From IMG/VR virus record IMGVR_UViG_3300005581_000108, positions 1-26,568 of that record: a stretch of 26,568 nt of DNA; one strand, written 5' to 3'. A program made the position numbers and the translations under genes. The DNA comes from a virus. Each line of letters opens with the position of its first letter. Within the stretch, counting starts at the first letter, position 1. Shown piece after piece: positions 3,587-26,513 of this stretch. Under the pieces are notes generated by a model. That model was not told where the DNA came from, did no database searches, and saw only the letters and a list, made by a program, of their open reading frames with translations.

Positions 3587-3604
3587 TTTGGTTTGGTTGG
3601 GTTT
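3587..3604 (-). repeat. Leader motif copy a (upstream of SSB-like gene)
   Basis: On the - strand this reads AAACCCAACCAAACCAAA, ending 14 nt before the SSB-like start codon. It is one of at least eight dispersed copies of the same core in the window. Confidence 0.75.
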
Positions 3605-3628
3605 GCTTGTGTCCGTTTTTGCGAAGTA

Positions 3629-3931
3629 TTAAAGACATACTTCCTCCTTTAATGTAACTGAAGGGTTTGTCAAAAGATAGCCAAAATTAAATATTTTTGA
3701 TCTATGTCGAATCACCTTTGGCTGATGGTCTGGAAATTCAAACCTTACGCCTAATAGGTGTTGCGCTTCGTCTAGATGATTTTCTAGCCTGGACGTGTCT
3801 AAAGCTGTATTTTCATATAACATCTCTAGAACAGCGCGTAAATGGTCTCCAGCTTCACGTATGATATCCTGGGCCTTGTCGCACTCATGACAGTCTGGTT
3901 GCGTGCAACTGTCTTCTTCGTAGTAATACAT
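3629..3931 (-). CDS. Hypothetical small early protein, first gene of the left operon
   Basis: 100 aa from the chosen start (MYYYEEDSCTQPDCHECDKA...). A Cys/His cluster at residues 9-17 (C9, C14, H15, C17) could bind a metal ion, followed by a helical stretch (REAGDHLRAVLEMLYENTAL, then RLENHLDEAQHLLG) and a basic C-terminal part. The start at 3931 is preferred over the first ATG at 4006. It has GAAGG upstream, the extension would run through the leader motif, and the predicted promoter -10 lies at 3998-4003, so a start at 4006 would precede the transcript. It is the first gene expressed from the leftward promoter. The function is unknown; an early regulatory or host-takeover role is possible. 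Confidence 0.65.
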   Translation of the reverse strand: MYYYEEDSCTQPDCHECDKAQDIIREAGDHLRAVLEMLYENTALDTSRLENHLDEAQHLLGVRFEFPDHQPKVIRHRSKIFNFGYLLTNPSVTLKEEVCL

Positions 3932-3965
3932 TTGGTGGTTCCTTCTAGTTTTGGTTGGTTGGGTT
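3929..3965 (-). repeat. Leader motif copy b (upstream of first left gene)
   Basis: On the - strand AACCCAACCAACCAAAA (3965-3949) is followed by GGAACCACCAAATG (3942-3929), which contains the start codon. Both halves of the two-part motif are present. The copy lies inside the predicted 60-nt 5' leader of the left operon transcript. Confidence 0.75.
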
Positions 3966-3997
3966 CTTATCTCAGCTATTCGCTGTGACATATGTAA

Positions 3998-4026
3998 ATA
4001 TAACACACCATGCTATTTAATGACAA
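3998..4026 (-). promoter_or_regulatory. Leftward early promoter (PL-like)
   Basis: On the - strand, TTGTCA (4026-4021), a 17-bp spacer and TTATAT (4003-3998) make a good sigma70-type promoter. Transcription would start near 3991, about 60 nt before the first left gene. It diverges from the + promoter at 4083-4111, leaving about 55 bp between the -35 boxes for operators. Confidence 0.7.
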
Positions 4027-4082
4027 TAGAAACAATTAAACAAAAACAACAAACCGTTAACATGAGATGTCTACAAAACAAG

Positions 4083-4111
4083 TTGTTGCTAAAAATGTGC
4101 AAACATATATA
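4083..4111 (+). promoter_or_regulatory. Rightward promoter of the Cro-like gene (PR-like)
   Basis: TTGTTG (4083-4088), 17-bp spacer, TATATA (4106-4111), with a start expected near 4118 and a 25-nt leader to the regulator ATG. AAACAT occurs twice, at 4101-4106 and 4113-4118, overlapping the -10 box. It may be an operator for the adjacent HTH protein; this is inference. Confidence 0.65.
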
Positions 4112-4142
4112 TAAACATGCTCTTCTAATCAGGAGGGTTAAA

Positions 4143-4385
4143 ATGGAATTAAAAAGTTGGCTTAAAAAAAACCGCGTTACGCAAGTTGCGTTTGCATCGC
4201 ATTTAGGTGTAACACAATTTTATTTATCCAAAATATTAAATGGAAAATATTACCCCAGCCGATCCTTGGCTATTAATATAGAAACATTAACAAATGGAGA
4301 GGTGCTAGCACAAGATATCATGTTTCCAGACACCCTGCTTTCAGAAAGAACTAATTTAATGGAAGATAAAAGAACGCAGCGATAG
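4143..4385 (+). CDS. XRE/Cro-type helix-turn-helix regulator
   Basis: 80 aa. An N-terminal HTH covers residues about 8-50: VTQVAFASHLGVTQFYLSKI forms the two helices and turn, followed by GKYYPSRSLAINIETLTNGE, typical of short Cro/YdaS-like phage regulators. The ATG at 4143 has a strong AGGAGGG 6-7 nt upstream. The in-frame extension back to 3951 would cross both promoters and is rejected. It is transcribed divergently from the recombination operon, in the position of Cro in lambdoid phages. It probably represses one or both divergent promoters. No partner repressor of the CI size is present here, so whether this is a lysogeny switch or simple early-to-late control is open. Confidence 0.85.
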   Translation: MELKSWLKKNRVTQVAFASHLGVTQFYLSKILNGKYYPSRSLAINIETLTNGEVLAQDIMFPDTLLSERTNLMEDKRTQR

Positions 4386-4398
4386 AGTAAAAAAAAGA

Positions 4399-4425
4399 GG
4401 GGGCCGAGTAACCAACTCAGCCCCC
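4399..4425 (-). terminator. Strong hairpin with T run on the - strand
   Basis: GGGGGCCGAGT (4399-4409) pairs with ACTCAGCCCCC (4415-4425) apart from one C-A mismatch. Read on the - strand the hairpin is followed by eight T after a short CTC, a strong intrinsic terminator. On the + strand no T run follows. No - strand gene ends here. Confidence 0.65.
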
Positions 4426-4427
4426 AA

Positions 4428-4456
4428 GAAACCCAACCAGCATAAAGAACCACCAA
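4428..4456 (+). repeat. Leader motif copy c (after the Cro-like gene)
   Basis: GAAACCCAACCA at 4428-4439, then AAAGAACCACCAA at 4444-4456. Both halves are intact but no start codon follows (ATACG in place of ATG). It lies between the regulator gene and the + strand terminator, a position like nutR in lambda. Confidence 0.75.
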
Positions 4457-4480
4457 TACGCTAGATAAGAACAAATGTAT

Positions 4481-4507
4481 AACCACACTTATAATTGTGG
4501 TTTTTTT
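4481..4507 (+). terminator. Rho-independent terminator after the Cro-like gene
   Basis: AACCACA (4481-4487), 8-nt loop, TGTGGTT (4496-4502), running into seven T. It would stop transcripts from the rightward promoter before the replication genes. Either read-through or antitermination, or a separate promoter, must serve the initiator gene. Confidence 0.85.
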
Positions 4508-4554
4508 ATTCTCACAAAAACAATGCTCTTTTTTGTATTAAATTAACACTAAAA

Positions 4555-4572
4555 AAACCCAACCAAACCAAA
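4555..4572 (+). repeat. Leader motif copy d (upstream of replication initiator)
   Basis: AAACCCAACCAAACCAAA, identical over 18 bp to copy a on the other strand. It ends 40 nt before the initiator ATG. A TATACT at 4584-4589 could be a -10 box, but no -35 box is recognisable 17 bp upstream, where the motif itself lies. Confidence 0.75.
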
Positions 4573-4612
4573 TCCCCTGTAAATATACTGAGAAAGGATA
4601 AAGGAAAAGTAG

Positions 4613-5782
4613 ATGCCCCCAAAAGATATCCTAGAAAATGTTGGTACCAGTGACTTCAGAATATATAACGTATCATTAGCAAAAGAACTCACCATATACG
4701 CCTCAGTAATAGTCAGCGAATTCTATAACCAATACATCTCGTGCAAGAAAAATAATACCCTACAAACACTTCCAGGAAGCAAACTAAAATGGTTTTTCTA
4801 TGACATCGAAACAGTCTATCAAAGACTAGGTATCTCAGAGAATGAACAGCGTGCCGCGCTCAAGCTACTAGTATCATATGACCTCATCGAGAGACGTGTC
4901 TCAGGGCTGCCAGCTAAACGATGTTTTGCTCTAAAATTCGACAATATTCAAGAATTTCAAAAAAACATTAAAGAGTTTGAAGATACTATTCAAAATTTAA
5001 CCAATGACAATGAAGAGCACGTTCAAAATTTAAGTAGCAACAATTTTGTGATAAAACAAAATTCTAATGATATTGAATTTGCGGTAAATCAAAATTCTAA
5101 TGTTACCTCAAAAAACTTGCAAGAAGTCTATAATTCACCCGGCTTGCCACGTGAAATCAACAGAATTGACGTTAAAGAACATTTTTTGAAAAAAAAAGCT
5201 CCCATATTACATAATACTCATGAAGCTATGTATCTCAATACACCTATTCATGAAAATACATACATCAATAGTGAAAAGAAAAAAAACCCGCGTGCGCCCG
5301 CGTACGCACACGCACACGAGGGCTTAGCCGATATTGAAAAAAACACTACTCGGCCTTCGGCCTCGCTTTTTTCTTTTTCTAATTCTAATTTTATTTTACA
5401 CGGAAGTCATGTTAAGTTAAAAAGCGAAGATTATACCAAGCTTTGTAAAAACCATACAAAAGAGCTCATTGATGTTTTAATCACAGAAATGAACGATTAT
5501 TGCGCTGCAAATAAGCCTAAAGGCTATAAGTGCTATGCGGCAGCTCTTAGAACATGGGTTAGGAGATACAGTGAAAACAATCCTACAAACTACTACAAAG
5601 CCAAACCAATCAACCCCGATAAGCCGGTCATGGCAAAGCATCCACCAGAAGCCATTAAGCAAAATGAGACACCTGAGGAGCGTAAAGCTCTTGGTGGGAA
5701 GAGGATAAACAAATCACTCTATAGCCTACTTGCTTTTCAGGGCAGGGATATGGAGGGATATATCCTCGATGAAACAATTTAA
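4613..5782 (+). CDS. Replication initiator (lambda O-like, winged-helix N-terminus)
   Basis: 389 aa. Residues about 15-112 form a winged-helix DNA-binding domain (SLAKELTIYASVIVSEFYNQ, TVYQRLGISENEQRAALKLL, DLIERRVSG). Residues about 113-262 are a low-complexity Asn/Gln/Lys linker. Residues about 266-325 carry the C-terminal domain of phage replisome organisers (VKLKSEDYTKLCKNHTKELI, MNDYCAANKPKGYK, AAALRTWVRRYSE). AAGGA precedes the ATG. The next gene, overlapping by 14 bp, is a DnaC-type loader, matching the O/P pairing. The linker DNA holds four phased iterons, so the gene probably contains the origin its product binds. Role: origin recognition and helicase recruitment in the host cytoplasm. 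Confidence 0.85.
   Translation: MPPKDILENVGTSDFRIYNVSLAKELTIYASVIVSEFYNQYISCKKNNTLQTLPGSKLKWFFYDIETVYQRLGISENEQRAALKLLVSYDLIERRVSGLPAKRCFALKFDNIQEFQKNIKEFEDTIQNLTNDNEEHVQNLSSNNFVIKQNSNDIEFAVNQNSNVTSKNLQEVYNSPGLPREINRIDVKEHFLKKKAPILHNTHEAMYLNTPIHENTYINSEKKKNPRAPAYAHAHEGLADIEKNTTRPSASLFSFSNSNFILHGSHVKLKSEDYTKLCKNHTKELIDVLITEMNDYCAANKPKGYKCYAAALRTWVRRYSENNPTNYYKAKPINPDKPVMAKHPPEAIKQNETPEERKALGGKRINKSLYSLLAFQGRDMEGYILDETI
4958..5102 (+). repeat. 33-bp-spaced iterons, candidate replication origin
   Basis: CAAAATTTAA starts at 4991 and 5024, and CAAAATTCTAATG at 5057 and 5090; each C is exactly 33 bp from the next, about three helical turns. A weaker fifth member (CAAAAAAACATTA) starts in register at 4958. 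The repeats lie in the linker of the initiator gene, as the lambda origin lies inside gene O. A very A+T-rich tract at about 5367-5399 could serve as the unwinding region. The same DNA encodes an 11-residue periodic QN(L/S) pattern, so protein-level repetition is the alternative explanation. Confidence 0.6.
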
Positions 5783-6359: not shown

Positions 6360-6449
6360 CGTTTAAACGCATTTAATACCACCTAGAACGAGCGATCTTG
6401 TGTTAAACGCAAGATTGTAAGCCTAAAACGCGTTCGTTGATTCTAGGTG
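6359..6449 (+). promoter_or_regulatory. Structured intergenic element with AAACGC repeats
   Basis: The gap between the loader and the next gene starts with the perfect 12-bp palindrome GCGTTTAAACGC (6359-6370). A two-tier stem follows: CACCTAG (6380-6386) with CTAGGTG (6443-6449), then AACGAGCG (6387-6394) with CGTTCGTT (6431-6438, one G-T pair), enclosing a hairpin ATCTTG (6395-6400)/CAAGAT (6410-6415). AAACGC recurs at 6365, 6405 and 6426. It could be a structured RNA leader, a protein-binding site or a secondary origin element. The T run of a terminator is absent. Confidence 0.5.
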
Positions 6450-6470
6450 CCTTAAAACAAGAAATCAGAA

Positions 6471-6502
6471 AACTCAACCAAAACCAGAAAAAGGACCAAA
6501 TG
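6471..6502 (+). repeat. Leader motif copy h (variant, ends at a start codon)
   Basis: AACTCAACCAAAACCAG followed by AAAAAGGACCAAATG. The first half has one change from the AACCCAACCA core. The second half merges a ribosome site with the ATG of the lipoprotein-like gene, as in copies a and b. Confidence 0.5.
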
Positions 6503-6715
6503 AAACATAAATTGGATAGTTTAGACAAGTTGTTGTTAGCAATTAGCTTTTTTTCGGCCACCTGTTTTTTAATAACAGTTACACAAGGATGTTCTTATAC
6601 AAACAAGAAGATGGGACAAAACGACGATTGGATTGGCGAAGAGATTGTAGAAGAGGTAATTAAATCACAAACAGGCTTGAGAGTAGATCTTACGCCAGAA
6701 TCACAAGAGAGGTAG
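6500..6715 (+). CDS. Small membrane or lipoprotein-like protein
   Basis: 71 aa. A short basic N-terminus (MKHKLDSLDK) precedes a hydrophobic segment at residues 11-28 (LLLAISFFSATCFLITVT) and a QGC at 29-31 that resembles a lipobox, so export and lipid attachment at Cys31 are possible. The soluble part (WIGEEIVEEVIKSQTGLRVD, then LTPESQE) has the acidic 'EEVI..TG..VDLTP' ending seen in small phage proteins encoded near replication genes. The ATG at 6500 has AAGGA upstream; the frame also opens at a TTG at 6437, which is rejected. The function is unknown; an envelope location is inferred from the sequence only. Confidence 0.65.
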   Translation: MKHKLDSLDKLLLAISFFSATCFLITVTQGCSYTNKKMGQNDDWIGEEIVEEVIKSQTGLRVDLTPESQER

Positions 6716-6724
6716 TAGGTTTAA

Positions 6725-7039
6725 ATGAGTAGCATTGATGAGATACGAAAAACGAAAATCAGAGCAGCACTGGAAAACACAAATCTAACATTTGGCTCAC
6801 TAATTAGAACTATTCGTTCGGCATTAGGCGTTAAGTTATACACAGCATGTGAGGAAACGGGTATTGGTGATCAAAAGATGAGGGCTTTTGAATTAGGAAG
6901 ATTTAGCAGGAGGCCAGATGAAACAGACATCAAGTTGCTGGCTGAATATTACGGAATTGAATACGAAAATCTTGTGGACAGAGTTGATAAACACATTGAA
7001 AGATCACGTAAAATGAGAGAGGAGAAGGGGCTTATATGA
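6725..7039 (+). CDS. XRE-family DNA-binding regulator
   Basis: 104 aa. Residues about 25-88 form an XRE-type helix-turn-helix: FGSLIRTIRSALGVKLYTAC for the first helices, then ETGIGDQKMRAFELGRFSRR across the recognition helix and loop, and DIKLLAEYYGIEYENLVDRV for the closing helices. The C-terminus is a short basic helix. It lies 9 bp after the lipoprotein-like gene and overlaps the next gene by 4 bp (ATGA), inside the replication operon. It is the second HTH regulator in the window. It could be a late activator or repressor; the target is unknown. Confidence 0.75.
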   Translation: MSSIDEIRKTKIRAALENTNLTFGSLIRTIRSALGVKLYTACEETGIGDQKMRAFELGRFSRRPDETDIKLLAEYYGIEYENLVDRVDKHIERSRKMREEKGLI

Positions 7040-7514: not shown

Positions 7515-8287
7515 AGATAACAATATTTGGAGATCCAATTTCCAAAATGAGGCCAAGATTTGCTCGTCGTGGGAAATATGTTTCTACATTTGATCCGCAA
7601 GAAGAGCAAAAGTTAACAATAAAAGAGCTATTAAAACAGCACTTTAAAGAGTGTTTAGAGAGTAATGATGTTAAAATCGCAACAGAGGCCAAAAGATTTG
7701 CCTCTACGCCATTCTTTGAGTGTGAGCTATCGTTTCATATCAAAGCACCAGAAAGTTGGTCTAGCGCACTAAAGAATGAGAAAATATGGGGTATAACGAA
7801 ATGTGACAATAAATGTGACCTAGATAATTACGAGAAGTTCTATCTTGACTGCATGAACAAAATTATATTTAATGATGACAAGCAGATTGTAATCCTAAAA
7901 TCAAGTAAACATTACTCACTGGATCCAAGGGTTGAAATTAATATTTCATCTATATCGTCTAGCGATATTACTGAAGAAGCCAAAGGGGTGTTAAGGGTAT
8001 TAGGTCCAAGCGAGGTTAGGGAATTGTTTGAACTTTGCTACGAATTGCATTGTTTAATTAAGGATGCTCGAGATGATGATGTTAATCCGAATTGTGATCT
8101 CAGTTTTTATGAAGCATATAATGAAATACAACTTTCCAAGACCGCTATAATTTTATCTGAATTGGCTGACAAATATGCTGTACCGTTAAAAAAGATAAAA
8201 ACTAATTACGGAAATCTTTGGAAGGATGTGCGTGAAGATTATACAACTAATAAAGAAGTGGTTTTGTCAAAAAAAACAGAAGACTGA
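7511..8287 (+). CDS. RusA-type Holliday junction resolvase with C-terminal extension
   Basis: 258 aa. The RusA core covers residues 1 to about 150. It has a basic N-terminal motif GDPISKMRPRFARRGKY at 7-23, the metal-binding signature KCDLDNYEKFYLDCMN at 101-116 with D103, D105 and N106, and NDDKQIV at 121-127 with D122/D123. RusA cleaves four-way junctions as a dimer. Known RusA proteins are usually about 120-150 aa; here about 105 further residues follow (from SSDITEEAKGVLRVLG), which I do not recognise. The GTG start has a perfect AAGGAGG 8 nt upstream and overlaps the preceding stop. It likely resolves branched DNA from replication or recombination before packaging. Confidence 0.88.
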   Translation: MKITIFGDPISKMRPRFARRGKYVSTFDPQEEQKLTIKELLKQHFKECLESNDVKIATEAKRFASTPFFECELSFHIKAPESWSSALKNEKIWGITKCDNKCDLDNYEKFYLDCMNKIIFNDDKQIVILKSSKHYSLDPRVEINISSISSSDITEEAKGVLRVLGPSEVRELFELCYELHCLIKDARDDDVNPNCDLSFYEAYNEIQLSKTAIILSELADKYAVPLKKIKTNYGNLWKDVREDYTTNKEVVLSKKTED

Positions 8288-8477: not shown

Positions 8478-8479
8478 GC

Positions 8480-8647
8480 ATGCCACTACACAAGGGAAAT
8501 TCCCCAAAAACCATTGGGAAAAACATTAAAGAACTGAAACAATCTGGTCGTCCACAGAAACAAGCTGTGGCTATTGCGCTATCAACAGCAGGAATAGCAA
8601 AAAAGAAACCCAAGAAACCCAAGAAACCAAAAACCAAAAAGGAATAA
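8480..8647 (+). CDS. Small basic DUF6496-like phage protein
   Basis: 55 aa. The core [19 protein letters not shown], then [12 protein letters not shown] matches the short phage family with the pattern S..TI..NI.EL...[11 protein letters not shown] (DUF6496, from memory). It ends in a Lys/Pro tail ([15 protein letters not shown]), so it is strongly basic and may bind nucleic acid. AAGGAG lies about 10 nt upstream of the ATG. Such proteins occur in the structural or accessory regions of many phages, and their function is not established. Confidence 0.75.
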
Positions 8648-8655
8648 CAACCACA

Positions 8656-8874: not shown

Positions 8875-8876
8875 GA

Positions 8877-8972: not shown

Positions 8973-8975
8973 TCT

Positions 8976-9694: not shown

Positions 9695-9766
9695 TGGAAT
9701 GAATCGAGGAACTAGTGTTTCTCGTGGAACAGATCTAAAAGAAAGTTGAGTATAAAGAATTAGATT

Positions 9767-10204
9767 ATGAGTGTATTACCTCCAAATTATAATTTTGAGC
9801 ATATTGTAGAGGCTCTTTACGAATGCAGAGGGTTTATTATTTCTTCACTTAAATATATTGACGTTAAGTGGGGCTATAAACTGACTAGAGAGGTTCTTAA
9901 TGCAATTATTGTAGAAAACGGAATGAAAGAATGGTTGGATGATATTAGACGTTCTCTAATTGAGGATTCGCTAGCAACGGTGCTTAGGAAGGGTGTGCGA
10001 GAGGGTGATAACGCCTGTTTGTTTTGGGTGTTAGGAAAATATAAACAGCATATTGATTTCTTAGAACCAGCTGAGGAAAACAAGCCTGAGAGGGCTAATG
10101 GTGAAATTACTGACTTCATGAATAACCTAAAGAAAGCAAATGCCGATACAGCCTTTAAGCGAGATGCAGCTAATAGCGTTTCAACAGAGCAATGCTCGAC
10201 TTAA
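9767..10204 (+). CDS. Terminase small subunit (probable)
   Basis: 145 aa. It lies directly upstream of the large terminase and overlaps it by 65 bp, the usual TerS position. The N-terminal half contains a helix-turn-helix-like stretch (SSLKYIDVKWGYKLTREVLN, then AIIVENGMKEWLDDIRR). The motif SLIEDSLATVLRKGVREGDN, followed by ACLFWVLGKYK at about 65-95, matches the oligomerisation helix and '..GD..A..F.L' signature of small terminases. TerS recognises the packaging site and stimulates the motor. Sequence identity to any model is low by eye, so position carries much of the weight. Confidence 0.75.
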   Translation: MSVLPPNYNFEHIVEALYECRGFIISSLKYIDVKWGYKLTREVLNAIIVENGMKEWLDDIRRSLIEDSLATVLRKGVREGDNACLFWVLGKYKQHIDFLEPAEENKPERANGEITDFMNNLKKANADTAFKRDAANSVSTEQCST

Positions 10205-11396
10205 TATATTTGAAGGCCCTGTAAGAGCTGGGAAGTCATTTTCGTCGCTATTGCGTTGGATAGAATTCTGTAGGTCTGGTCCTAAAGGGCCTCTAATACT
10301 TGTTGGACGAACTGACAAGACAATCAAAAGAAACATAATCCTACCACTGCAAGATCTTCTTGGAGATTCCATAGTGTATCACCAACATAAAGGTGAAGTA
10401 ATGCTATGGGATAGGATTATGTATGTTGTTGGAGCTAACGACGATAGAGCAGAAGCTAAGATTAGGGGATCTGAGTTTGCGGGTGCACTTGTCGATGAGG
10501 TGACTTTAATACCAGAAAACTTCATTAAGATGCTGCTTTCGCGATTGTCGGTAGATGGCGCTCAATTCTTCGGAACAACAAACCCGGATAGTCCATTCCA
10601 TTGGTTAAAACGTGATTTTATCGATAGACAAAGCGAGTTGAATATTGAGGTATTCTCCTTCAACATCAACGATAATCCTTCATTGTCAGAAAAATATAAA
10701 TCTGATTTAAGGAAGGAATACCAAGGGTTATGGTATCAGCGCTATATAGAGGGAAGGTGGGTGCTTGCTGAAGGTGCTGTTTACGACTTCTTTGATGAAA
10801 GTCGGCATGTAATAGAGCATCCTCCGGGAACAGCAGATTATTATATTGTTGGCGTTGATTACGGAACAACAAACCCATGCGTCTTTTCTATGATAGGCTA
10901 CTCTGGAGCAACTTACCCTAACATGTGGCTTGATAAGGAGTATTACTATGATTCAAAGGCAAAGCAACGGCAAAAGACAGATTATGAATATGCTAATGAT
11001 TTAGTCGAGTTTATAAAGGGATACAATGTAAAAGCGCTTTACATCGACCCGTCTGCTGCATCATTTAAGCTTGAGTTGCGTAGATCTGGCGTTGCTAATA
11101 TCAGAGATGCAAAGAATGAAGTTTTGGACGGGATTAGATATCAAAGCCAGCTAATCAGTGCTGGAACCTATAAAATATGCCGCTGTTGCACTAATTCCAT
11201 TAAGGAATATAGCACATATTTGTGGGACGAGAAATCTAGTAATCACGGTATTGATAAACCAATGAAAGTAAATGATCACTGCTGTGATGCCCAAAGATAT
11301 GCACTATTTACACACTTTTATGCCAAAACGACTAATGGCATGACAGAGGAGGAAGCAATGTCGATGCAAAAAGTCTATGGTAAAAAATGCTATTAA
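10140..11396 (+). CDS. Terminase large subunit (packaging ATPase/nuclease)
   Basis: 418 aa. ATPase motifs: the deviant Walker A GPVRAGKS at 26-33, Walker B ALVDE with D119/E120, and coupling motif GTTNPDS at 145-151. The RNase-H-like nuclease follows: IVGVDYGTTNP with D240, YIDPSA with D303, and NDHCCDAQRYA with D379/D383. All expected acidic residues are present, so the enzyme appears intact. It pumps DNA into the procapsid and cuts the concatemer, docking on the portal encoded next. The start at 10140 lies inside the TerS gene. Family assignment is firm (PBSX/Terminase_3-6-like); packaging by headful or cos cannot be decided from sequence. Confidence 0.95.
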   Translation: MPIQPLSEMQLIAFQQSNARLNIFEGPVRAGKSFSSLLRWIEFCRSGPKGPLILVGRTDKTIKRNIILPLQDLLGDSIVYHQHKGEVMLWDRIMYVVGANDDRAEAKIRGSEFAGALVDEVTLIPENFIKMLLSRLSVDGAQFFGTTNPDSPFHWLKRDFIDRQSELNIEVFSFNINDNPSLSEKYKSDLRKEYQGLWYQRYIEGRWVLAEGAVYDFFDESRHVIEHPPGTADYYIVGVDYGTTNPCVFSMIGYSGATYPNMWLDKEYYYDSKAKQRQKTDYEYANDLVEFIKGYNVKALYIDPSAASFKLELRRSGVANIRDAKNEVLDGIRYQSQLISAGTYKICRCCTNSIKEYSTYLWDEKSSNHGIDKPMKVNDHCCDAQRYALFTHFYAKTTNGMTEEEAMSMQKVYGKKCY

Positions 11397-11426
11397 TGAT
11401 AAACATAAGTATAACCAAGCGGAGTG

Positions 11427-11471
11427 TGTAAAGCGGCTTTACATAAGAACCAAATGTACAGCTGTTTTACA
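11427..11471 (+). promoter_or_regulatory. Twin 17-bp palindromes (operator-like)
   Basis: TGTAAAGCGGCTTTACA (11427-11443) is a perfect palindrome around one central base. TGTACAGCTGTTTTACA (11455-11471) is a degenerate copy of the same length, 28 bp downstream. TTTACATA also recurs at 11535-11542. The tiny loop makes an RNA hairpin unlikely, so a dimeric DNA-binding protein is the better reading. The pair lies in the 193-bp gene-free gap between terminase and portal. Confidence 0.6.
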
Positions 11472-11477
11472 TAGATA

Positions 11478-11507
11478 GAAACCCAACCAGAGCACAAGAA
11501 CCACAAT
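11478..11507 (+). repeat. Leader motif copy e (upstream of portal gene)
   Basis: GAAACCCAACCA at 11478-11489 and CAAGAACCACAAT at 11495-11507; both halves are present but no start codon follows. It is 83 nt before the portal ATG and 7 bp after the second palindrome. Confidence 0.75.
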
Positions 11508-11589: not shown

Positions 11590-13653
11590 ATGGTCAATTC
11601 AGATCTTTCTATCGTCAATCAGTATGACGAAGCTTATCTCGCCGCTTATTTAGCTTGGGATTCCTTCTTTCCCTTAGCTGAAAGAGATCTTAGGATGTAC
11701 CTTGGCGATCAGTGGGATGAAGCGGAAAAGAAAGAGCTTTTCCAGCAAGGAAGATCCACATTCGTATTTAATAAAATACGTCCAAGTATAAATATGGTGA
11801 CAGGCTATCAGCGTAAGCACCGTCACTCTTCTGTAGTTGTCCCCGTTGAGGGATCAGACCAACAAACATCAGATCAACTGACAAAACTCCTTTTGTACGC
11901 GATGCAATTTGGAGATGGTTACGAACTCATTTCTGATTGTTTTTCTGGTGCCTTAAAAACAGGCTGGAATCTTGCTAGTGCTTGGCTAGATTATAGAACT
12001 GATCCAATAGATGGGGACATCTGTTTCCGTAGAGAGCCTTATAACGCATTCATTTGTGATCCTTATTTCTCTAAAAGGGATATGTCAGATTGTGCTTATA
12101 TTTTGCGGAGAAAATACCTCTCAATAGAACAAACAAACTCCCTTCTTCCAGGAAAAGAAAATGAGCTAATAGAGCTCTATAATGTTGGATGGGAGAGGGA
12201 CGATAAATTCACATGGTTACCCTATCAAAGGCTCCCAAACGGCCAAAAGATGATGGCATACGATGAATTTTGGGTTCAGGGATGGGAAGATGAAGAGCTT
12301 TTAATAGACCGTCAAACGGGTGAAATGTCCCCTTTTGATGGAGACAGAAACATTCTATTCATTCGCCCTGAATTAGATATAATTACACGAAAAAAACCGT
12401 ACGTTTTACAACATATCATTGTCAATAACGTGCATCTTCTAACAGAGAAAAACCCGAATGGCTTAGATGAATACCCATTCGTTCCATTCTTTGCTATTTT
12501 TGAGCCAGAATCCGACCAGTGGATGCTCAAGGTACAATCGCTTATTAGGACGATGGTAGACCCACAAAGAGAGTCTAATCGCCGTAGATCACAGATGAGT
12601 GACCTTATTGAGAGTCAAATTAACTCTGGCTGGGTGGCTACAGAAAATAGTGTTGTAAATCCTCGGTCATTATTCCAAACGTCGCAGGGAAAAGTAATCT
12701 GGCGCACTCAAGATGCTGCACCTGGTTCATTAGAAAAGATTCCTCCTGCACAAATACCGCCAAGTTTCTTCCAGCTACAAGAGCTGTATGACAAAGACAT
12801 GCAAGAAGTTGCTAATATTTCCGCTGAATTGCTGGGTCAAGCCGATTCTGAACAGGATTCAGGCCTTAAAGTGATGCTCAGACAAGGAGCCGCTTTAGTA
12901 GGGTTACAAGATCTATTCGACAACTTGAGGTATTCTCAAGAGTGTCTATCTAGAAAAGTTTTAAAATTGATTCAACACTGGTCGCCGGAAAAGATGTCAA
13001 GAATTCTTGGCGAAGAGGTGTCCGAATCAATAAAAAACAAAGAGGTCTTAAAATACGATATTTCTGTTCAAGAAGGTGTTCTCACAAACACCCAGCAGCA
13101 AATGTTCTTTCAGCAACTCATCACCCTTAAAGAACTTGGCGAGCCTATACCTCCTGGATTACTTGCTCGTGTTGCGCCTCTACAGGGCAAAACCGAATAC
13201 ATGCAAGCGATGGATGAATTCAATAAGAAGCAACAGGAAGCACAAGACCAAGCTACTCAAATCCAGCAGCAGATTCATCAGACACAATCGCAACTATTCC
13301 AATCACAATCTATAGCAAACATCGCATCTGCAAAAGAGAGATTTACTCGCTCCGTAGCAAATCTAGGATTGGAAGACGAACGCGTAGCCCAAGCGGTAGA
13401 AAACCGTGCTGATGCAACTCTCAAGCGCACACAAGCTGCAAAGCAGATTGAGGAGATGGACGACGATAGATTGATCAAGCTATTGGATCTGTTTATGAAA
13501 TTAGAGGACTACAACCAAGCTCAAGAAGCTAAATTAAAATCCGACAATTTAATGGTATCGTCGCAGGTAAAAAACATAGTAAATCAACAGCAAGGAGCTG
13601 GGGTTGAACCTGGGCCTGTTGCTGGTCAACAAAGTCAACAATTAGGAGTTTAA
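11590..13653 (+). CDS. Portal protein, P22 gp1-like
   Basis: 687 aa, close in size to the P22 portal. The N-terminal region (WDEAEKKELFQQGRSTFVFN, then KIRPSINMVTGYQRKHRHSS) carries the family opening; the middle has the wing and stem region (MVDPQRESNRRRSQMSDLIE, ISAELLGQADSEQDSGLKVM). From about residue 540 the C-terminus is a long Gln/Ala-rich helix (QQEAQDQATQIQQQIHQTQS), like the helical barrel of P22 that reaches into the capsid and senses DNA filling. Twelve copies form the DNA channel. The ATG follows a short A+T tract with no good ribosome site, so the start is slightly uncertain. It is followed 2 bp later by a small head gene. Confidence 0.92.
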   Translation: MVNSDLSIVNQYDEAYLAAYLAWDSFFPLAERDLRMYLGDQWDEAEKKELFQQGRSTFVFNKIRPSINMVTGYQRKHRHSSVVVPVEGSDQQTSDQLTKLLLYAMQFGDGYELISDCFSGALKTGWNLASAWLDYRTDPIDGDICFRREPYNAFICDPYFSKRDMSDCAYILRRKYLSIEQTNSLLPGKENELIELYNVGWERDDKFTWLPYQRLPNGQKMMAYDEFWVQGWEDEELLIDRQTGEMSPFDGDRNILFIRPELDIITRKKPYVLQHIIVNNVHLLTEKNPNGLDEYPFVPFFAIFEPESDQWMLKVQSLIRTMVDPQRESNRRRSQMSDLIESQINSGWVATENSVVNPRSLFQTSQGKVIWRTQDAAPGSLEKIPPAQIPPSFFQLQELYDKDMQEVANISAELLGQADSEQDSGLKVMLRQGAALVGLQDLFDNLRYSQECLSRKVLKLIQHWSPEKMSRILGEEVSESIKNKEVLKYDISVQEGVLTNTQQQMFFQQLITLKELGEPIPPGLLARVAPLQGKTEYMQAMDEFNKKQQEAQDQATQIQQQIHQTQSQLFQSQSIANIASAKERFTRSVANLGLEDERVAQAVENRADATLKRTQAAKQIEEMDDDRLIKLLDLFMKLEDYNQAQEAKLKSDNLMVSSQVKNIVNQQQGAGVEPGPVAGQQSQQLGV

Positions 13654-13854: not shown

Positions 13855-14214
13855 ATGCAACAAGTTGGTGAAACATCACAGGCAATAGTAGAAGACGATG
13901 AGAGGGAAGTTGATAGAATTCTTCGACAAAATTCATGTCATAAAGAACCTTATTGGATCGTTATCTATGCAAAACCAACTAAAACAATGGTTGATGGAAA
14001 ACACACGATGCTAAGGTATCGTAAAGCTGTTTTCACTAAGCCAAATCCTCAAGTAGGAATGATCATCGCTGAAGTGAACAATCAAGATGGAACGATTGAC
14101 TGGGACATTTCTATGCCTGACAGGCCTTTTGATTATGGCGCGTTAGGTTTAGAGCAAGACTCCCATGTAAGAGTTTCATCAAAGATCAATCCACAAGCAT
14201 ATATTTACAATTAA
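13855..14214 (+). CDS. Hypothetical head-module protein
   Basis: 119 aa. The ATG has AGGA about 7 nt upstream and lies 8 bp after the preceding stop. A central beta-rich segment (PYWIVIYAKPTKTMVDGKHT, LRYRKAVFTKPNPQVGMIIA) precedes DGTIDWDISMPDRPFDYGAL. No signal peptide, membrane segment or catalytic motif. It lies between portal and scaffold, so it is probably a virion or assembly component. I do not recognise the family. Confidence 0.65.
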   Translation: MQQVGETSQAIVEDDEREVDRILRQNSCHKEPYWIVIYAKPTKTMVDGKHTMLRYRKAVFTKPNPQVGMIIAEVNNQDGTIDWDISMPDRPFDYGALGLEQDSHVRVSSKINPQAYIYN

Positions 14215-14279
14215 GAGCCGCCGTCTTTAACGGGCGTAAAAAAAGAAACCCAACCAAGAGCCGCCATCTTTAAAGGGCG
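14215..14279 (+). repeat. Two 22-bp direct repeats flanking the leader motif
   Basis: 14215-14236 and 14258-14279 match at 20 of 22 bases (GAGCCGCCGTCTTTAACG... and GAGCCGCCATCTTTAAAG...). Each can fold its CGCC against the terminal GGCG. The 21-bp spacer contains the A-run and the dispersed motif. The first copy starts at the base after the preceding stop codon. Confidence 0.8.
14245..14257 (+). repeat. Leader motif copy f (upstream of scaffold gene)
   Basis: GAAACCCAACCAA, followed by GAGCCGCCATC in place of the usual second half. It is 41 nt before the scaffold ATG and sits between two 22-bp direct repeats. Confidence 0.7.
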
Positions 14280-14298
14280 AATATACAGGACCCACTTA

Positions 14299-14964
14299 AT
14301 GGAACTAACCAATCCGGGCGTTTATTCTGAGGCCGCCGCTCAGGGAGTAGAGTCTCAACTCGACCAACAAAGCTACCAACAAGAGGCACCTGCGCAAGAA
14401 CAGCATGTGCCATTGTCTGCGTTACAGGCTGAGAGGAGAGAAAGACAGCAGTTGCAAGAAAATCTCAAGCTAATGCAAGACCACATTTCGCTTCTCCAAG
14501 CTAATCACGTCAGAAGTAAACCACCTGAAGATGATGGCCTAAGAGATGACGATGTTTTAACCGTAGGTGAGGCAAAGCGTTACCTAAGTGAACAAACACG
14601 TAAAACGGATTCTGAGCTTGCAGAACTTAGAATGCAACAGACCTACTCCGATTATGCGGAGATAGTGAAAACATATCTCCCTGAAGTTTTAAAGGAAGAC
14701 CCAGAACTAAGGGACGAAATTCAGAACGCTCGGAATCCATTCAAACTTGCTTACAAACTAGCTAAGAAATCAGATGGCTATCAGAAATTTAAACGCGATA
14801 AGATGAGCAGCCCAGAGGCAACAAAAGCTATTGCAAATTCGCATAGACCAGGAAATCTTTCATCCGTTGGATCTGTCAGCCCTGCATCTCAAGTTAATTC
14901 ATACAAAAGCATGTCGGACGCCGATTTTATGAAACAAGTCCAGAAGAACTTGGGATACAGCTAA
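14299..14964 (+). CDS. Capsid scaffolding protein
   Basis: 221 aa. The protein is hydrophilic with a Gln/Glu-rich N-terminus, a coiled coil at about 38-70 (LSALQAERRERQQLQENLKL), a charged middle (EDDGLRDDDVLTVGEAKRYL) and a short C-terminal helix (MSDADFMKQVQKNLGY) that would bind the coat protein. This composition and its position directly before the coat gene fit phage scaffolds, which guide procapsid assembly and leave before or during packaging. AGGA lies about 9 nt before the ATG. There is no protease motif, so it is probably recycled and not self-cleaved; this is inference. Confidence 0.8.
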   Translation: MELTNPGVYSEAAAQGVESQLDQQSYQQEAPAQEQHVPLSALQAERRERQQLQENLKLMQDHISLLQANHVRSKPPEDDGLRDDDVLTVGEAKRYLSEQTRKTDSELAELRMQQTYSDYAEIVKTYLPEVLKEDPELRDEIQNARNPFKLAYKLAKKSDGYQKFKRDKMSSPEATKAIANSHRPGNLSSVGSVSPASQVNSYKSMSDADFMKQVQKNLGYS

Positions 14965-14987: not shown

Positions 14988-15929
14988 ATGGCAATTACAA
15001 CCGTATCAGTGTTGCCTCCCGCAGTAAGAGAGTATTACGACCGTTTACTCTTGATGACTGCCTATCCAATGTTGGTTCATACACGTTTCGCACAGAAGCG
15101 CGTATTACCAAAGAAGATGGGAGACACCATTGTTTTTAGAAGATATTCCAGACTGTCAACAGTACCAATTCCATTACAAGATGGAATAACACCACCTGGA
15201 GCACCTCTAAGTGTTACAGATATCAAAGCACGCGTAGATTTCTACGGTAACTTCGTAATGATCACAAATCAAGTCGAACTTACTGTTGAGGATAGAGTTC
15301 TTAACGAATCTTCACGTCTACTTGCTCAAAACGTTGGTCAGACTATGGACGAAGTTACTAGAGACGTTCTTGCTGCAACAAGCTCAGTACTTGCTTGCAG
15401 TAATGGATCTAACGGTAACACTCCAACAGAACTAACTAAGACTGATATTGACGCAGCAGTAAAAACACTATTAGGCAACGACGCCGAAATGATTTCCGCT
15501 GTAGTTACGGGAACTAATGCGTTTGGAACAACTCCAGTACGCCCAAGTTTCTATGCCTATATTGATACAGATCTTCTAGATGATTTAGAAGCTGTTTCAA
15601 ACTTCGTCAGTTCAGCAAACTATCCTAATCAGAACACAGTTCTGGATGGGGAGTGGGGATCAACTGGAAACGTAAGATGGTTATATACAAGCGTAGGAAG
15701 TGTTTCTAGCGCATCTCCTGCTGTATACAATAACTTCATTATCGGAAAAGAGGCCTACGCTGTAGTTAACCTAGGATCCGAAACTGGTGAGTTTTATATC
15801 GAACCGCTCGGATCAGGAGGTTCTTCTGACCCATTGCATCAGAGAGGGACAGTCGGATGGCAGCATCCTTTTGTATCCCGTATCTTGAATGATGCATTCA
15901 TGTTGAATCTTCAAGCAACACATAGTTAA
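14988..15929 (+). CDS. Major capsid protein, N4-gp56 family
   Basis: 313 aa. The N-terminus (PPAVREYYDRLLLMTAYPML, then HTRFAQKRVLPKKMGDTIVF, RRYSRLSTVPIPLQDG) and the strand pattern GNFVMITNQVELTVEDRVLN are typical of N4-gp56-type HK97-fold coat proteins. The C-terminal half holds the A-domain strands (SFYAYIDTDLLDDLEAVSNF, GNVRWLYTS) and the ending QRGTVGWQHPFVSRILNDAF. It forms the icosahedral shell on the scaffold encoded upstream. The ribosome site is weak (ACGAGA), unusual for the most abundant protein; strong expression may rely on transcript level or coupling to the 23-bp-distant scaffold gene. Confidence 0.92.
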   Translation: MAITTVSVLPPAVREYYDRLLLMTAYPMLVHTRFAQKRVLPKKMGDTIVFRRYSRLSTVPIPLQDGITPPGAPLSVTDIKARVDFYGNFVMITNQVELTVEDRVLNESSRLLAQNVGQTMDEVTRDVLAATSSVLACSNGSNGNTPTELTKTDIDAAVKTLLGNDAEMISAVVTGTNAFGTTPVRPSFYAYIDTDLLDDLEAVSNFVSSANYPNQNTVLDGEWGSTGNVRWLYTSVGSVSSASPAVYNNFIIGKEAYAVVNLGSETGEFYIEPLGSGGSSDPLHQRGTVGWQHPFVSRILNDAFMLNLQATHS

Positions 15930-17832: not shown

Positions 17833-18387
17833 ATGGCAGAGTCAGACTGGGATCCAACCCAACCACTAACTACAACAAAATTACGACTTGTACCGTCGGT
17901 TATCACTCCTAATTGGGATGCTATTGAAGATGGTGATGTTCCTCATGTTAAAGTGAGATTGGCAGAACAGGCCGGAAACCCAACTAATGAAGCTAATAGA
18001 GCATTTCTATATGCAAAAGAAGACCCTAGTAATGGATTTACAGAAACATTTGCCATCAATAGCAACGGAAGCGTAGTACAACTTACACGTGGTGTGCCAA
18101 CGATTTCAGCATCTGGATATGTATATCTTCCTGGTGGCGTGCTCCTGCAATGGGGAACAAATGCAGACGTTTGGAACGGGACACCAACAATTACATTTCC
18201 CCTAGCTTTCTCTGCTGCGCCGTATTCGATTACAGCTAATACAAAAACGGCAGGATCTTCTGCAAGGGCTTTTGTAACGGTTGGAACACTTACCACGACA
18301 ACATGGACGCCTACTTTATACGCAGATGGCGGAACGGTCGCCGGTACTTCTAGAGATTTGTATTGGATGGCGATAGGGCCTGCCTAA
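17833..18387 (+). CDS. Head or tail fibre with gp53-like C-terminal knob
   Basis: 184 aa. The first 90 residues form an attachment and shaft region (TKLRLVPSVITPNWDAIEDG, TFAINSNGSVVQLT). From about residue 92 there is the gp53-like tail-fibre domain: ASGYVYLPGGVLLQWGTNAD, then TITFPLAFSAAPYSITANTK, and the closing LYWMAIG. This domain forms the distal trimeric knob of several fibres. GAGGT lies about 6 nt upstream of ATG. Its place between adaptor and stabilisation genes suggests a fibre anchored near the portal vertex. A host-binding role is inferred. Confidence 0.78.
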   Translation: MAESDWDPTQPLTTTKLRLVPSVITPNWDAIEDGDVPHVKVRLAEQAGNPTNEANRAFLYAKEDPSNGFTETFAINSNGSVVQLTRGVPTISASGYVYLPGGVLLQWGTNADVWNGTPTITFPLAFSAAPYSITANTKTAGSSARAFVTVGTLTTTTWTPTLYADGGTVAGTSRDLYWMAIGPA

Positions 18388-18405
18388 GAAATAAATAGGG
18401 ATTAA

Positions 18406-20873: not shown

Positions 20874-20874
20874 A

Positions 20875-24665: not shown

Positions 24666-24808
24666 TAATCTCCTGTCCAACCCTCCGGTTCATCGTTCCA
24701 AGTTGCTATAAGGGCAACCGGCCAAATGATAAGATTAACCACAACTGCGAAGCAAAGGGTCGGGGAATGCAGTATTATGCATATTATATTTCCAAGTGTT
24801 TCTAACAT
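24662..24808 (-). CDS. 48-aa membrane protein
   Basis: I chose the ATG at 24808, with AGAGAG upstream; the frame opens at 24871, but that start has no ribosome site. The protein (MLETLGNIICIILHSPTLCF, then AVVVNLIIWPVALIATWNDE and PEGWTGDY) is hydrophobic from about residue 7 to 37, enough for one long or two short membrane helices, with an acidic tail. It is the last gene of the - strand operon and overlaps the ejection gene end by 4 bp. A role in lysis or membrane modification is possible but not shown. Confidence 0.55.
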   Translation of the reverse strand: MLETLGNIICIILHSPTLCFAVVVNLIIWPVALIATWNDEPEGWTGDY

Positions 24809-24887
24809 ATGATCTCTCTTAGTTTCTGTGTCAATCAGATATATTATAGACATATAACGACAATAACACAAGAAAAACCAAGAGAAA

Positions 24888-24956
24888 CTAGTTTTTTAGT
24901 TTCTCAAAAAAATATATAACAACAGCTATAGCGATGAGACTTCCCAGGATAAACAC
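24888..24956 (-). CDS. 22-aa membrane peptide, translationally coupled
   Basis: GTG shares one base with the upstream stop (TAGTG). The 22 codons give a single hydrophobic helix with a charged end (FILGSLIAIAVVIYFF, then EKLKN). Composition and coupling suggest a real membrane mini-protein, but at this length chance cannot be excluded. A hairpin (24882-24905, GAGAAACTA/TAGTTTCTC) lies across its stop codon. Confidence 0.38.
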   Translation of the reverse strand: MFILGSLIAIAVVIYFFEKLKN

Positions 24957-25387
24957 TATTTATCTCTCCAAAGCCTATCTTGCAACTCATCAGCATGCCA
25001 CGCATAATAATCGGCATCACTCATGTGTCGCACGGATTCATAGTAAGCATCAGAGGCGTCGGTAGTAATATTTGCTATTGTATTTAAACACCCCGAAACA
25101 AGAACACCATATACATTTCTTGTTGCTATTCCAGTAATAAGGCCAGCAATAGCACTCAATACCGTTCTTTTCACATCAAGTTGTTTGATCTTTTCTGCTG
25201 CGCTTTTAGATTTTTTAATAGCTGAATTCATTTTTTCAACTGTGAAATGCCATTCTCTCCATATTCTATCCCTTTCCGCATCGGTAAGGGCTTTGTTCTG
25301 GCATTCACACACGTTGATTAGAGAGGCTTGATAGGCCTCTTGTGGAATAGTCCAAATAGTTTCTTGTGGCGGAATAAAATCAATCAT
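24956..25387 (-). CDS. Hypothetical protein with hydrophobic centre
   Basis: 143 aa, not recognised. A soluble N-terminal part with CEC at 27-29 and Trp-rich helix (DAERDRIWREWHFTVEKMNS) is followed by a Lys-rich stretch and two hydrophobic segments at about 75-88 (TVLSAIAGLITGIA) and 92-107 (VYGVLVSGCLNTIANI). An acidic Tyr/Trp-rich C-terminus follows (DADYYAWHADELQDRLW). AGGAG lies 11 nt before the ATG. It is the largest product of the - strand operon and probably inserts in or docks on the membrane. A lysis or superinfection role is speculative. Confidence 0.65.
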   Translation of the reverse strand: MIDFIPPQETIWTIPQEAYQASLINVCECQNKALTDAERDRIWREWHFTVEKMNSAIKKSKSAAEKIKQLDVKRTVLSAIAGLITGIATRNVYGVLVSGCLNTIANITTDASDAYYESVRHMSDADYYAWHADELQDRLWRDK

Positions 25388-25388
25388 A

Positions 25389-25562
25389 CTAATAAAAACT
25401 CCTCGTTAAAATTTCCATGGAAGAATTAGCTATAAAGAGAATGACAAAGTCGAGAATGGTCGTATGTATTTGTTGTTTTTGGCCGTATTTCTTCCTGTAA
25501 AACCACATTGCTAAACTTGTTCCAAGTGATACAAATAAGCATTTAAAAAAAAACGACATCAT
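25389..25562 (-). CDS. 57-aa two-span membrane protein, holin-like size
   Basis: Starts in an ATGA overlap with the upstream zinc-ribbon gene and ends 1 bp before the next start, whose ribosome site it contains. Two hydrophobic segments are visible: residues about 4-22 (FFFKCLFVSLGTSLAMWFY) and 33-48 (TTILDFVILFIANSSM), separated by a basic loop (RKKYGQKQQ). Small two-span proteins include class II holins, and an adjacent cluster of membrane genes fits a lysis region. No endolysin is visible in the window, so the holin reading is only a suggestion. Confidence 0.6.
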   Translation of the reverse strand: MMSFFFKCLFVSLGTSLAMWFYRKKYGQKQQIHTTILDFVILFIANSSMEILTRSFY

Positions 25563-25801
25563 TCTAGCTCTTTTTTGGTCAAATTATGTCCCTGACATTT
25601 TCGACTGCAATACTTTGATCTTTCATATGTTGATTTTTTTTTTGTATAAAGAAAACCGCAGGTTTCACATACGCAATAAACATGTAAATTACCTTTCGGC
25701 CTTCTTCCCATTGCAGTATTTCTACATATAATCGAACAATATTTCTTTTGTCGTCTCTGTAAAGCCGCTTTACATTCCAAGCACTTCACCAGAGCACTCA
25801 T
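25559..25801 (-). CDS. Double zinc-ribbon protein
   Basis: 80 aa, overlapping both neighbours by 4 bp (ATGA). Two Cys clusters are clear: C7-x2-C10 with C22-x3-C26, and C45-x2-C48 with C65-x3-C69; the second has the form CETCGFLYTKKK...YCSRKC. Spacing of this kind is found in zinc fingers attached to HNH nucleases, but no HNH motif is present. The charged, basic character suggests nucleic-acid binding. It is odd in an operon of membrane proteins; it could be a remnant of a homing endonuclease or a regulator. Confidence 0.65.
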   Translation of the reverse strand: MSALVKCLECKAALQRRQKKYCSIICRNTAMGRRPKGNLHVYCVCETCGFLYTKKKSTYERSKYCSRKCQGHNLTKKELE

Positions 25802-26070
25802 TTCTTTTCTTTTAACAAATCAATAAACATTTGGTATAAGTGATCGGTTCTTTGGTTATATGCATCTGTTTTATCAATAAACATTTGGTATAAGTGATCG
25901 GTTCTTTGGTTATTTATATCTATTTTATTGCTTAAAGAGTTGATATTGATGTCTAGTCTATTGCTTAATGCGTTGACATCGCTGTCTAATCTATTTGCCA
26001 CGTAAAATACGAAAGTACCCAACGTTCCAATAATCGTTCCAATAATCGTTACTGTTTGTGTCCAATCCAT
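25798..26070 (-). CDS. Membrane-anchored coiled-coil repeat protein
   Basis: 90 aa. An N-terminal membrane span at about 5-24 (QTVTIIGTIIGTLGTFVFYV) is followed by heptad-like repeats (NRLDSDVNALSNRLDININS, LSNKIDINNQRTDHLYQMF) and an 18-residue unit present twice (YQMFIDKTDAYNQRTDHL), encoded by a 54-bp tandem DNA duplication. The arrangement gives a rod on the outer or inner face of the membrane. AGGGAGG lies just before the ATG. Holin-associated or spanin-like functions are conceivable, but there is no lipobox and the function is unknown. Confidence 0.62.
   Translation of the reverse strand: MDWTQTVTIIGTIIGTLGTFVFYVANRLDSDVNALSNRLDININSLSNKIDINNQRTDHLYQMFIDKTDAYNQRTDHLYQMFIDLLKEKK
25821..25928 (-). 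repeat. 54-bp tandem duplication
   Basis: Units 25821-25874 and 25875-25928 match at 50 of 54 bases, with the first 39 bases identical. It keeps the reading frame of the coiled-coil gene and adds 18 residues. Confidence 0.9.
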
Positions 26071-26091
26071 TATTTCCTCCCTAAGAGCTGA

Positions 26092-26142
26092 CTCCCTACA
26101 TGTTCCTAATCACTCCCTGCATGTTCCTAATCACTCCCTACA
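26092..26142. repeat. 21-bp tandem repeats in an operon gap
   Basis: Units 26092-26112 and 26113-26133 differ at one base, and a third partial unit runs to 26142. On the - strand the unit contains TAGGAACATG, which looks like a ribosome site plus start, but the frames close at once. The 100-bp gap (26071-26169) between two - strand genes holds no other gene. Confidence 0.85.
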
Positions 26143-26169
26143 GGTTGGGGAGATTTCTCAGGAGACCTA

Positions 26170-26367
26170 TTATCCTTTTGCGACAAAAGGATTGGAGCCA
26201 TACTCCTCTAGTTGTTTTTTTAATTCTAGATACATTTTCGCAAGTTCGTTGTGTCTAGCAAAAAGGCCTTTTCTAACCGCTTCAGAACTTGCTTTTACTT
26301 GTGCAAGTTCACTTTTAAGAGCTGCAACCTCATCAATTTCTTCAAAAAGATTTAACTGGATTTCCAT
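26170..26367 (-). CDS. Small acidic coiled-coil phage protein
   Basis: 65 aa from the ATG at 26367; an in-frame ATG at 26379 is an alternative. The sequence MEIQLNLFEEIDEVAALKSE, LAQVKASSEAVRKGLFARHN, then ELAKMYLELKKQLEE resembles a small protein type I recognise from other phages (SS..VR..LFA.H.ELAK.YLEL), of no known function. It forms a coiled coil. There is no ribosome site, and the predicted transcript starts only about 11-23 nt upstream, so initiation may be near-leaderless. It is the first gene of the - strand operon. Confidence 0.7.
   Translation of the reverse strand: MEIQLNLFEEIDEVAALKSELAQVKASSEAVRKGLFARHNELAKMYLELKKQLEEYGSNPFVAKG
26172..26192. terminator. Perfect inverted repeat across a stop codon
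   Basis: ATCCTTTTG (26172-26180), three-base centre, CAAAAGGAT (26184-26192). On the - strand it covers the last codons of the first gene and one base of its stop. No T run follows. It could attenuate transcription or stabilise the 5' cistron. Confidence 0.4.
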
Positions 26368-26396
26368 AAAAATAACCATGTTTTTTCTTACGCATA

Positions 26397-26425
26397 ATTA
26401 TAACAGGGACCTTTGCCAATGTAAA
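26397..26425 (-). promoter_or_regulatory. Near-consensus promoter of the - strand small-gene operon
   Basis: On the - strand TTTACA (26425-26420), a 17-bp spacer and a perfect TATAAT (26402-26397). This is the best sigma70 match seen in the window and suggests constitutive or early expression by host RNA polymerase. Confidence 0.8.
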
Positions 26426-26440
26426 TAAGAAAAAAACCAT

Positions 26441-26469
26441 TTGTTGTAAAAACAAGAAAAATGTTATGT
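26441..26469 (+). promoter_or_regulatory. Promoter of the downstream fibre-like gene
   Basis: TTGTTG (26441-26446), 17-bp spacer, TTATGT (26464-26469). Transcription would begin near 26476, so the 5' leader would consist almost entirely of leader motif copy g. It diverges from the - strand promoter at 26397-26425. The -10 match is moderate. Confidence 0.5.
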
Positions 26470-26476
26470 ATGTGTT

Positions 26477-26513
26477 ACCCAGCCAAACCACCACCACCAA
26501 GAGAACCACGATG
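26477..26513 (+). repeat. Leader motif copy g (variant, ends at a start codon)
   Basis: ACCCAGCCAAACCACCACC, then ACCAAGAGAACCACGATG including the start codon. The first half has one change from the core and extra CCA units. The second half matches the AAGAACCACCA form and carries the ATG. Confidence 0.6.

Follow-up and report, generated by a model that had tools for sequence, protein, structure and literature searches.

Why does one short, two-part sequence recur before early, replication and head genes of an uncultured tailed phage, on the strand of the gene that follows? The question is raised by the whole stretch of DNA analysed here, a 26,568-base virus record (IMGVR_UViG_3300005581_000108, hereafter the window), in which the word AAACCCAACCA is paired with AAGAACCACC. 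With a probability of about 0.5, we propose from the sequence that the phage encodes a small RNA beside its Cro-like gene and that the repeat copies are its dispersed docking sites. The copy at 4428, which a preliminary description of the window had likened to a decayed gene start, makes better sense as a terminator on the minus strand together with a seed region, and the best reading of this copy is that it is the minus-strand gene of the putative antisense RNA and not a leader, the other copies being its targets.

Relatives of the window phage were gathered by scans with TerL and the major capsid protein (MCP), to which was added a 36-kb phage contig binned in a Chlamydiae metagenome-assembled genome (MAG). 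The motif was traced across about 60 related contigs (given below as L followed by a number), and the locus directly behind the Cro-like gene, called here the post-Cro locus, was compared in 11 phages.

The post-Cro locus

The hairpin at 4399-4425 (fold -19.1 kcal/mol, z -4.9) has AACCA as its plus-strand loop and, read on the minus strand from 4425 to 4399, was the strongest terminator-like site of its region in a terminator scan; together with the hairpin at 11425-11473, whose loop holds AAGAACCAA, it had been missed by the preliminary description. In relatives, a longer hairpin with the same loop stands immediately after the Cro-like gene and is followed by CUACACGCGAG, with compensatory change in 7 of its 10 pairs. 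A U-run on the antisense side accompanies the post-Cro hairpin in 11/11 phages, and most portal, scaffold and MCP leader hairpins, as read from their sequence contexts, have no such run. The adjoining bases (4426-4458) are complementary to leaders over 14, 14 and 10 nucleotides (nt), and AAGAAACCCAACCAGCATAAAGAACCACCAA is the site at which both halves of the motif are intact and close together without a gene directly behind them. Throughout the 11 phages, the terminator loop and its neighbouring bases show complementarity to two short words in each phage's own leaders.

Outside the five post-Cro sites from which it was built, a covariance model recovered the corresponding site of L006 (E 2e-9) and, as its next best hits, L102, L182 and portal leaders from several phages; since the model finds portal leaders, both loci hold the same element. 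No Cro homologue was detected in L004, where the best terminator-ended candidate sits at a fibre leader. As a side observation read from sequence, the 3' arm GTGGTTTTT of the window's plus-strand terminator (4499-4507) could pair with AAGAACCAC at 4445-4453, an attenuator-like alternative seen in this lineage only.

Distribution of the two words in the window

Five exact copies of AAACCCAACCA are present (3594-3604 on the minus strand; 4429, 4555, 11479 and 14246 on the plus strand), along with two leader copies bearing one mismatch (3956-3966, minus; 6470, plus), and all seven are noncoding and lie on the strand of the following gene. Sense-leader positions make up 3.8% of strand-positions and hold 5/5 exact copies (P = 7.6e-8) and 7/9 matches with at most one mismatch (P = 3.6e-9), the remaining two both being inside gene 17833-18387. 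When up to two mismatches are allowed there are 18 matches vs 8.3 expected, a count reached in 0/100 shuffles, which in part bears out the preliminary description, as do these seven of its copies; that at 26477 (TTACCCAGCCA, three mismatches) is weak, and an AACCA-type element is held by the fibre leaders of L004 and L114. The 6470-6480 copy lies downstream of a structured leader that holds AATACCACC at 6375. Spread by copying, also suggested earlier, is supported for at least one pair, 20 nt being identical between the copies at 3604 (minus) and 4555 (plus).

The exact word is lineage-specific. Outside the window record, AAACCCAACCA was found only in L007 and L064, near-identical contigs of the same phage; relatives at 65-69% TerL identity lack it and have scattered one-mismatch matches only, a de novo k-mer search in relatives gave no exact counterpart, and the conservation in related phages that the preliminary description had set as a condition is absent for this exact sequence. 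A scan of all viral contigs for AAACCCAACCA then AAGAACCA was set aside, as its matches elsewhere were coding and mostly belonged to one homologous gene.

The second word, AAGAACCAC (at most one mismatch), occurs in leaders at 4445, 11445, 11496, 26501 and, on the minus strand, 3935, as well as inside genes, and its variant AACAACCAC is found at 8646 in a small-gene leader; taken alone, its frequency in the window is near chance. The claim that in four copies this half runs directly into the ribosome site and ATG holds for 3932-3941 (minus) and 26501, while at the 3604 and 6470 copies an AC-rich spacer alone precedes them.

Leader words and hairpins in relatives

The core of the second word is the part shared with relatives. 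GAACCACA is present in 12 of their 410 noncoding leaders vs 0.4 expected, with 2 occurrences on the opposite strand; AACCCA and CCAACC showed no enrichment in the same leaders. GAACCAC stands there in the loops of small hairpins whose stems vary from copy to copy: a stem of at least 5 pairs flanks it in 15/42 leader words vs 40/633 elsewhere (P 1.3e-7), aligned leader hairpins show compensatory change in 6/6 pairs, and a nested form with an inner hairpin is found in L004, L005, L006 and L070. The relatives' second word, CUACACGCGAG, stands after GAACCAC; of 33 sites of this type (B-type), 25 have an AACCA-type word at most 60 nt upstream and 16 are 2-16 nt before a start codon, the word often overlapping the ribosome site. 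Element positions include the leaders of portal, scaffold, MCP, ParB-like, terminase-small-like and fibre genes and of the first left gene, and the pair found in the window is replaced by CUACACGCGAG with GAACCAC in most relatives and by CACAGGAAUACC with GCACCACC in another. What survives of the shared RNA leader signal proposed earlier is thus a two-part, sense-oriented element that recurs in lineage-specific form, its exact sequence not being conserved. A scan for GAACCA...ACACGCGAGG was rejected, the matches listed being mostly chance coding hits plus a few real portal leaders.

Searches of the window and eight relatives against Rfam 15 (C4 included) gave no match at gathering score, and below it two leaders had weak, chance-level hits only (E 2-5). 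The covariance model R2 had no match in 79 Chlamydiota genomes, a result that carries no information either way.

Agreement between locus and leaders within each phage

When terminator-ended segments were ranked, unsupervised, by their complementarity to leaders, the post-Cro locus came first of 34 in the window, first in L065 and second in L070 and L073. The words vary among phages, but within one phage those at this locus match the ones in the leaders of portal, scaffold and first left gene, so that locus and leaders change jointly: AGAAACCCAACCAG and GAACCACCAA in the window, GAACCAAU in both L006 and L067, GAACCACU in L112, AAACCAC in L070, AGCACAA(A/G)CAAGG in L114 and CCGCACCACC in L095, which also has CACAGGAAUACC in its portal leader; L083 carries UACACACGGA or ACACACGGA before two starts. 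Exact matches to the 4426-4458 locus extend over 14 nt and 9 nt in the window's portal leader (11477-11504) and over two stretches of 10 nt in the first-left-gene leader (3932-3966, minus), one of them touching the ATG; GGAGAACCACC-ATG at that gene recurs family-wide. When 24-39 leaders per phage were compared as duplex partners, the portal leader came out best in 7/11 phages, and in the window it has the best duplex energy of 25 leaders, the portal, scaffold and first-left-gene leaders taking ranks 1-3 (z -3.6, 0/30 shuffles).

Several results weigh against a small RNA. The complementarity ranking put the locus outside the first three in L006, L067, L079, L112 and L114, the portal leader of L083 has no match, and in L065, L067, L095 and some others the duplex z-scores fell short of significance. 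No conserved or consensus minus-strand promoter was found at the locus. Sense-copy and antisense models predict the same identity between locus and leaders, and ranking, word agreement and duplexes alone therefore do not prove pairing. Substitutions between locus and targets (13 G:U-compatible, 3 reverse, 8 transversions) lean towards changes that pairing would tolerate, a weak sign that is only suggestive because the C/A-rich nature of the sites weakens the comparison.

Alternative explanations

The main rival is a sense-strand operon-leader element of the put/nut type, in which a hairpin and linear tail would modify RNA polymerase and bring about antitermination, with or without a protein. 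Like putL and putR of HK022 (PMC9378689), copies are found a short way downstream of the left promoter region and behind the Cro-like gene, a second hairpin follows the tail in most phages, and in the window a sense terminator stands just downstream (4481-4509); however, such a terminator follows in only 2/9 phages, antisense terminators being found in 6/9, and for this reason antitermination was dropped as the first choice. In addition, this rival leaves the antisense U-run of the post-Cro copy unexplained, and many copies are found in the middle of operons, with a start codon 10-60 nt further on. Nor is boxA enriched near copies: the lambda form (YGCTCTTTA), which in nut sites adjoins a boxB hairpin, has just two exact matches in the window, at 2135 and 13672, with no copy next to either, and the nearest match with one mismatch is at 4524. 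We consider this explanation unlikely, though a serious one.

Less probable still is a single RNA-binding protein, of phage or host, that would act like RegA on the translation or mRNA decay of many genes, the post-Cro copy being merely another site. Conservation of AACCAC within loops of variable stem, and its presence at the ribosome site of the first left gene in 8 phages, would suit such a protein, but the words change between phages while locus and leaders stay matched, so that its specificity would have to shift each time, and no candidate was found: the product of the first left gene is acidic and has no Pfam match, and its acidity also led us to drop a reading of it as an N-like antiterminator. 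Where the preliminary description had proposed a translation or antitermination factor as the partner, a small RNA is the likelier one. If AC-rich ribosome-binding leaders lacking structure had simply spread by copying and no trans-acting partner existed, the identical window pair and the different copied unit of L069 (terminator hairpin plus AAAGAAAACAACAAAACCGAGG) would be accounted for, but not the covarying hairpins or the matching of both words between the post-Cro and portal loci, where no ribosome site is needed; we hold this to be improbable. Chance repetition of A/C-rich sequence, with which the near-chance frequency of the second half in the window would agree, is refuted by the counts for the motif as a whole, exact copies being confined to sense leaders and the excess of GAACCACA in relatives' leaders being strand-specific.

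Proposed mechanism

According to the small-RNA reading, the minus strand just after the Cro-like gene would encode a small antisense RNA with a strong intrinsic terminator at its end, and the single-stranded part of this RNA would pair with mRNA leader words, through UGGUUGGGUUU and GGUGGUUCUU in the window and, in relatives, through CUCGCGUGUAG plus the terminator loop GUGGUU. Among the putative targets are the leaders of portal, scaffold and the first left gene; relatives present one word in a hairpin loop while the other often overlaps the Shine-Dalgarno region, a placement from which control of translation start or of mRNA stability would be the simplest effect of pairing. We infer that the RNA is transcribed and pairs in vivo, with either repression or activation as the outcome, and one RNA might in this way coordinate early, replication and head genes.

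That a tailed-phage family, possibly of Chlamydiae, shares a cro-side master small RNA with two-part sites in many early and late leaders, RNA and sites coevolving, is in our estimate slightly short of an even chance. The phage antisense RNAs known so far usually have a single phage gene as their target, and a single RNA acting on sites dispersed genome-wide would, if real, constitute a new layer of temporal control, for which the 11 phages, with their jointly changing RNA and sites, supply natural variants for testing.

Features of the window and its relatives

Positions and details of the window features (strand as + or -)
Feature	Position	Strand	Details
Exact AAACCCAACCA copy	3594-3604	-	before SSB-like gene (2835-3572)
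Putative target, first left gene leader	3932-3966	-	AACCCAACCA ... AGAAGG GAACCACCAA ATG
Cro-like HTH gene	4143-4385	+	Pfam HTH_3 7.8e-06; adjoins post-Cro locus on its upstream side
Putative small-RNA intrinsic terminator	4389-4425	-	GGGGGCTGAGTTGGTTACTCGGCCCCC then TCTTTTTTTT; 11 pairs, 8 G-C
Putative small-RNA seed region	4426-4458	-	minus strand of AAGAAACCCAACCAGCATAAAGAACCACCAA; both anti-motif halves
Plus-strand intrinsic terminator	4481-4509	+	between post-Cro locus and replication genes
Exact AAACCCAACCA copy	4555-4565	+	before DnaD-like replisome gene (4613-5782)
One-mismatch copy AAACTCAACCA	6470-6480	+	G:U-compatible change; before gene 6500-6715
Portal leader hairpin	11425-11473	+	loop AAGAACCAA (11445-11453); -21.1 kcal/mol, z -5.0
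Putative portal leader target	11477-11504	+	AGAAACCCAACCAG + AAGAACCAC; halves ordered as at 4426-4458
Scaffold leader	14208-14293	+	duplicated GCCGCC...GGGCG hairpin sequence, AAGAAACCCAACCA (14243-14256) between copies
Weak copy	26477-26511	+	ACCCAGCCA ... GAGAACCACG ATG; before last, truncated fibre-like gene; second-word part at 26501

The head genes of the window are TerL (10140-11396), portal (11590-13653), a gene in the scaffold position (14299-14964) and MCP (14988-15929), and its replication and recombination genes comprise a RecE-like exonuclease, an SSB-like protein, a DnaC-like loader and a DnaD-like replisome gene. Megablast against the GenBank phage collection gave no close phage. 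L114 (G001:C1, 36,464 bases), from a Chlamydiae MAG bin, is a near-complete relative, and the binning of this wholly phage-like contig suggests Chlamydiae as host. MCP genes seemingly split by insertions resembling introns or homing-endonuclease elements were seen in L102, L107, L108 and L109 and in the Chlamydiota contigs G069:C368 and G092:C388.

The window's portal leader hairpin is syntenic with GAACCAC hairpins upstream of the portal gene in relatives. A near-palindrome, TGTAAAGCGGCTTTACAT, is found at 11427, 11455 and 25758; the first two copies build this hairpin, and the third is inside a minus-strand gene, as is a 54-nt tandem duplication at 25819-25926. Several portal leaders (L003:2008-2110, L065:2085-2185, L088:3277-3378 and eight further ones) are structured as a three-way junction, GCGAGG...CCTCGC, with compensatory change in 9/15 predicted pairs and apparent kissing loops that differ by phage (CCGTA/TACGG, CCGCTA/TAGCGG, CCGAAT/ATTCGG); CGCACC can pair with the start-codon region GGTGCGATG, and no Rfam match to it was found. 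Neither this portal leader RNA nor the leader hairpins are described in Rfam.

The scaffold leader slot holds a GAACCAC hairpin in relatives; taken by itself, the window version does not fold significantly (z +0.45). A hairpin, GTGCCGCC...GGGCG, is conserved before the scaffold gene in the relatives' scaffold leaders examined and duplicated in the window (14208-14293), and CGGGCG recurs inside the first codons of that gene in most relatives, a candidate for scaffold autoregulation. The L069 contig (L267/L268) holds a different dispersed unit, a terminator GGGGCGTAAAGCCCC plus AAAGAAAACAACAAAACCGAGGTA (e.g., 7925-7988), to which 12 leaders are complementary over at least 9 nt.

Comparison with known systems

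Phages are known to encode small antisense RNAs of OOP/sar size (PMC12197685). Lambda OOP resembles the proposed RNA in being a short antisense RNA from the interval between Cro and replication genes that regulates phage genes by pairing (PMC12197685), but it acts in cis on cII, whereas the sites here are scattered among the leaders of early, replication and head genes. P22 sar, a 68/69-nt phage antisense RNA, likewise blocks the translation start of a phage gene (PMC12197685), in its case the single target ant, in contrast with the several putative targets with two-part words found here. Judged by sequence alone, the window has two features of this type, a short putative RNA ending in an intrinsic terminator and complementarity to phage mRNAs around translation starts.

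The c4 RNAs of P1/P7 and the CI RNA of P4 show bipartite complementarity to leader sequences near the ribosome site, arise from that same leader transcript and have a role in immunity. The putative RNA described here is instead antisense and located after cro, and it gave no Rfam hit, so that by that test its family differs.

HK022 has putL and putR elements near PL and about 270 nt after PR (PMC9378689). Each put RNA comprises two stem-loops, and termination is suppressed by it without any protein. These elements and lambda nut are matched here by copies near PL and after cro at similar distances (PMC9378689); for two stem-loops near PL and after PR the positions fit, and the second hairpin is present in most phages. 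Their order and sequences differ from those seen here, where the additional copies in head-gene leaders and the antisense terminator set the element apart.

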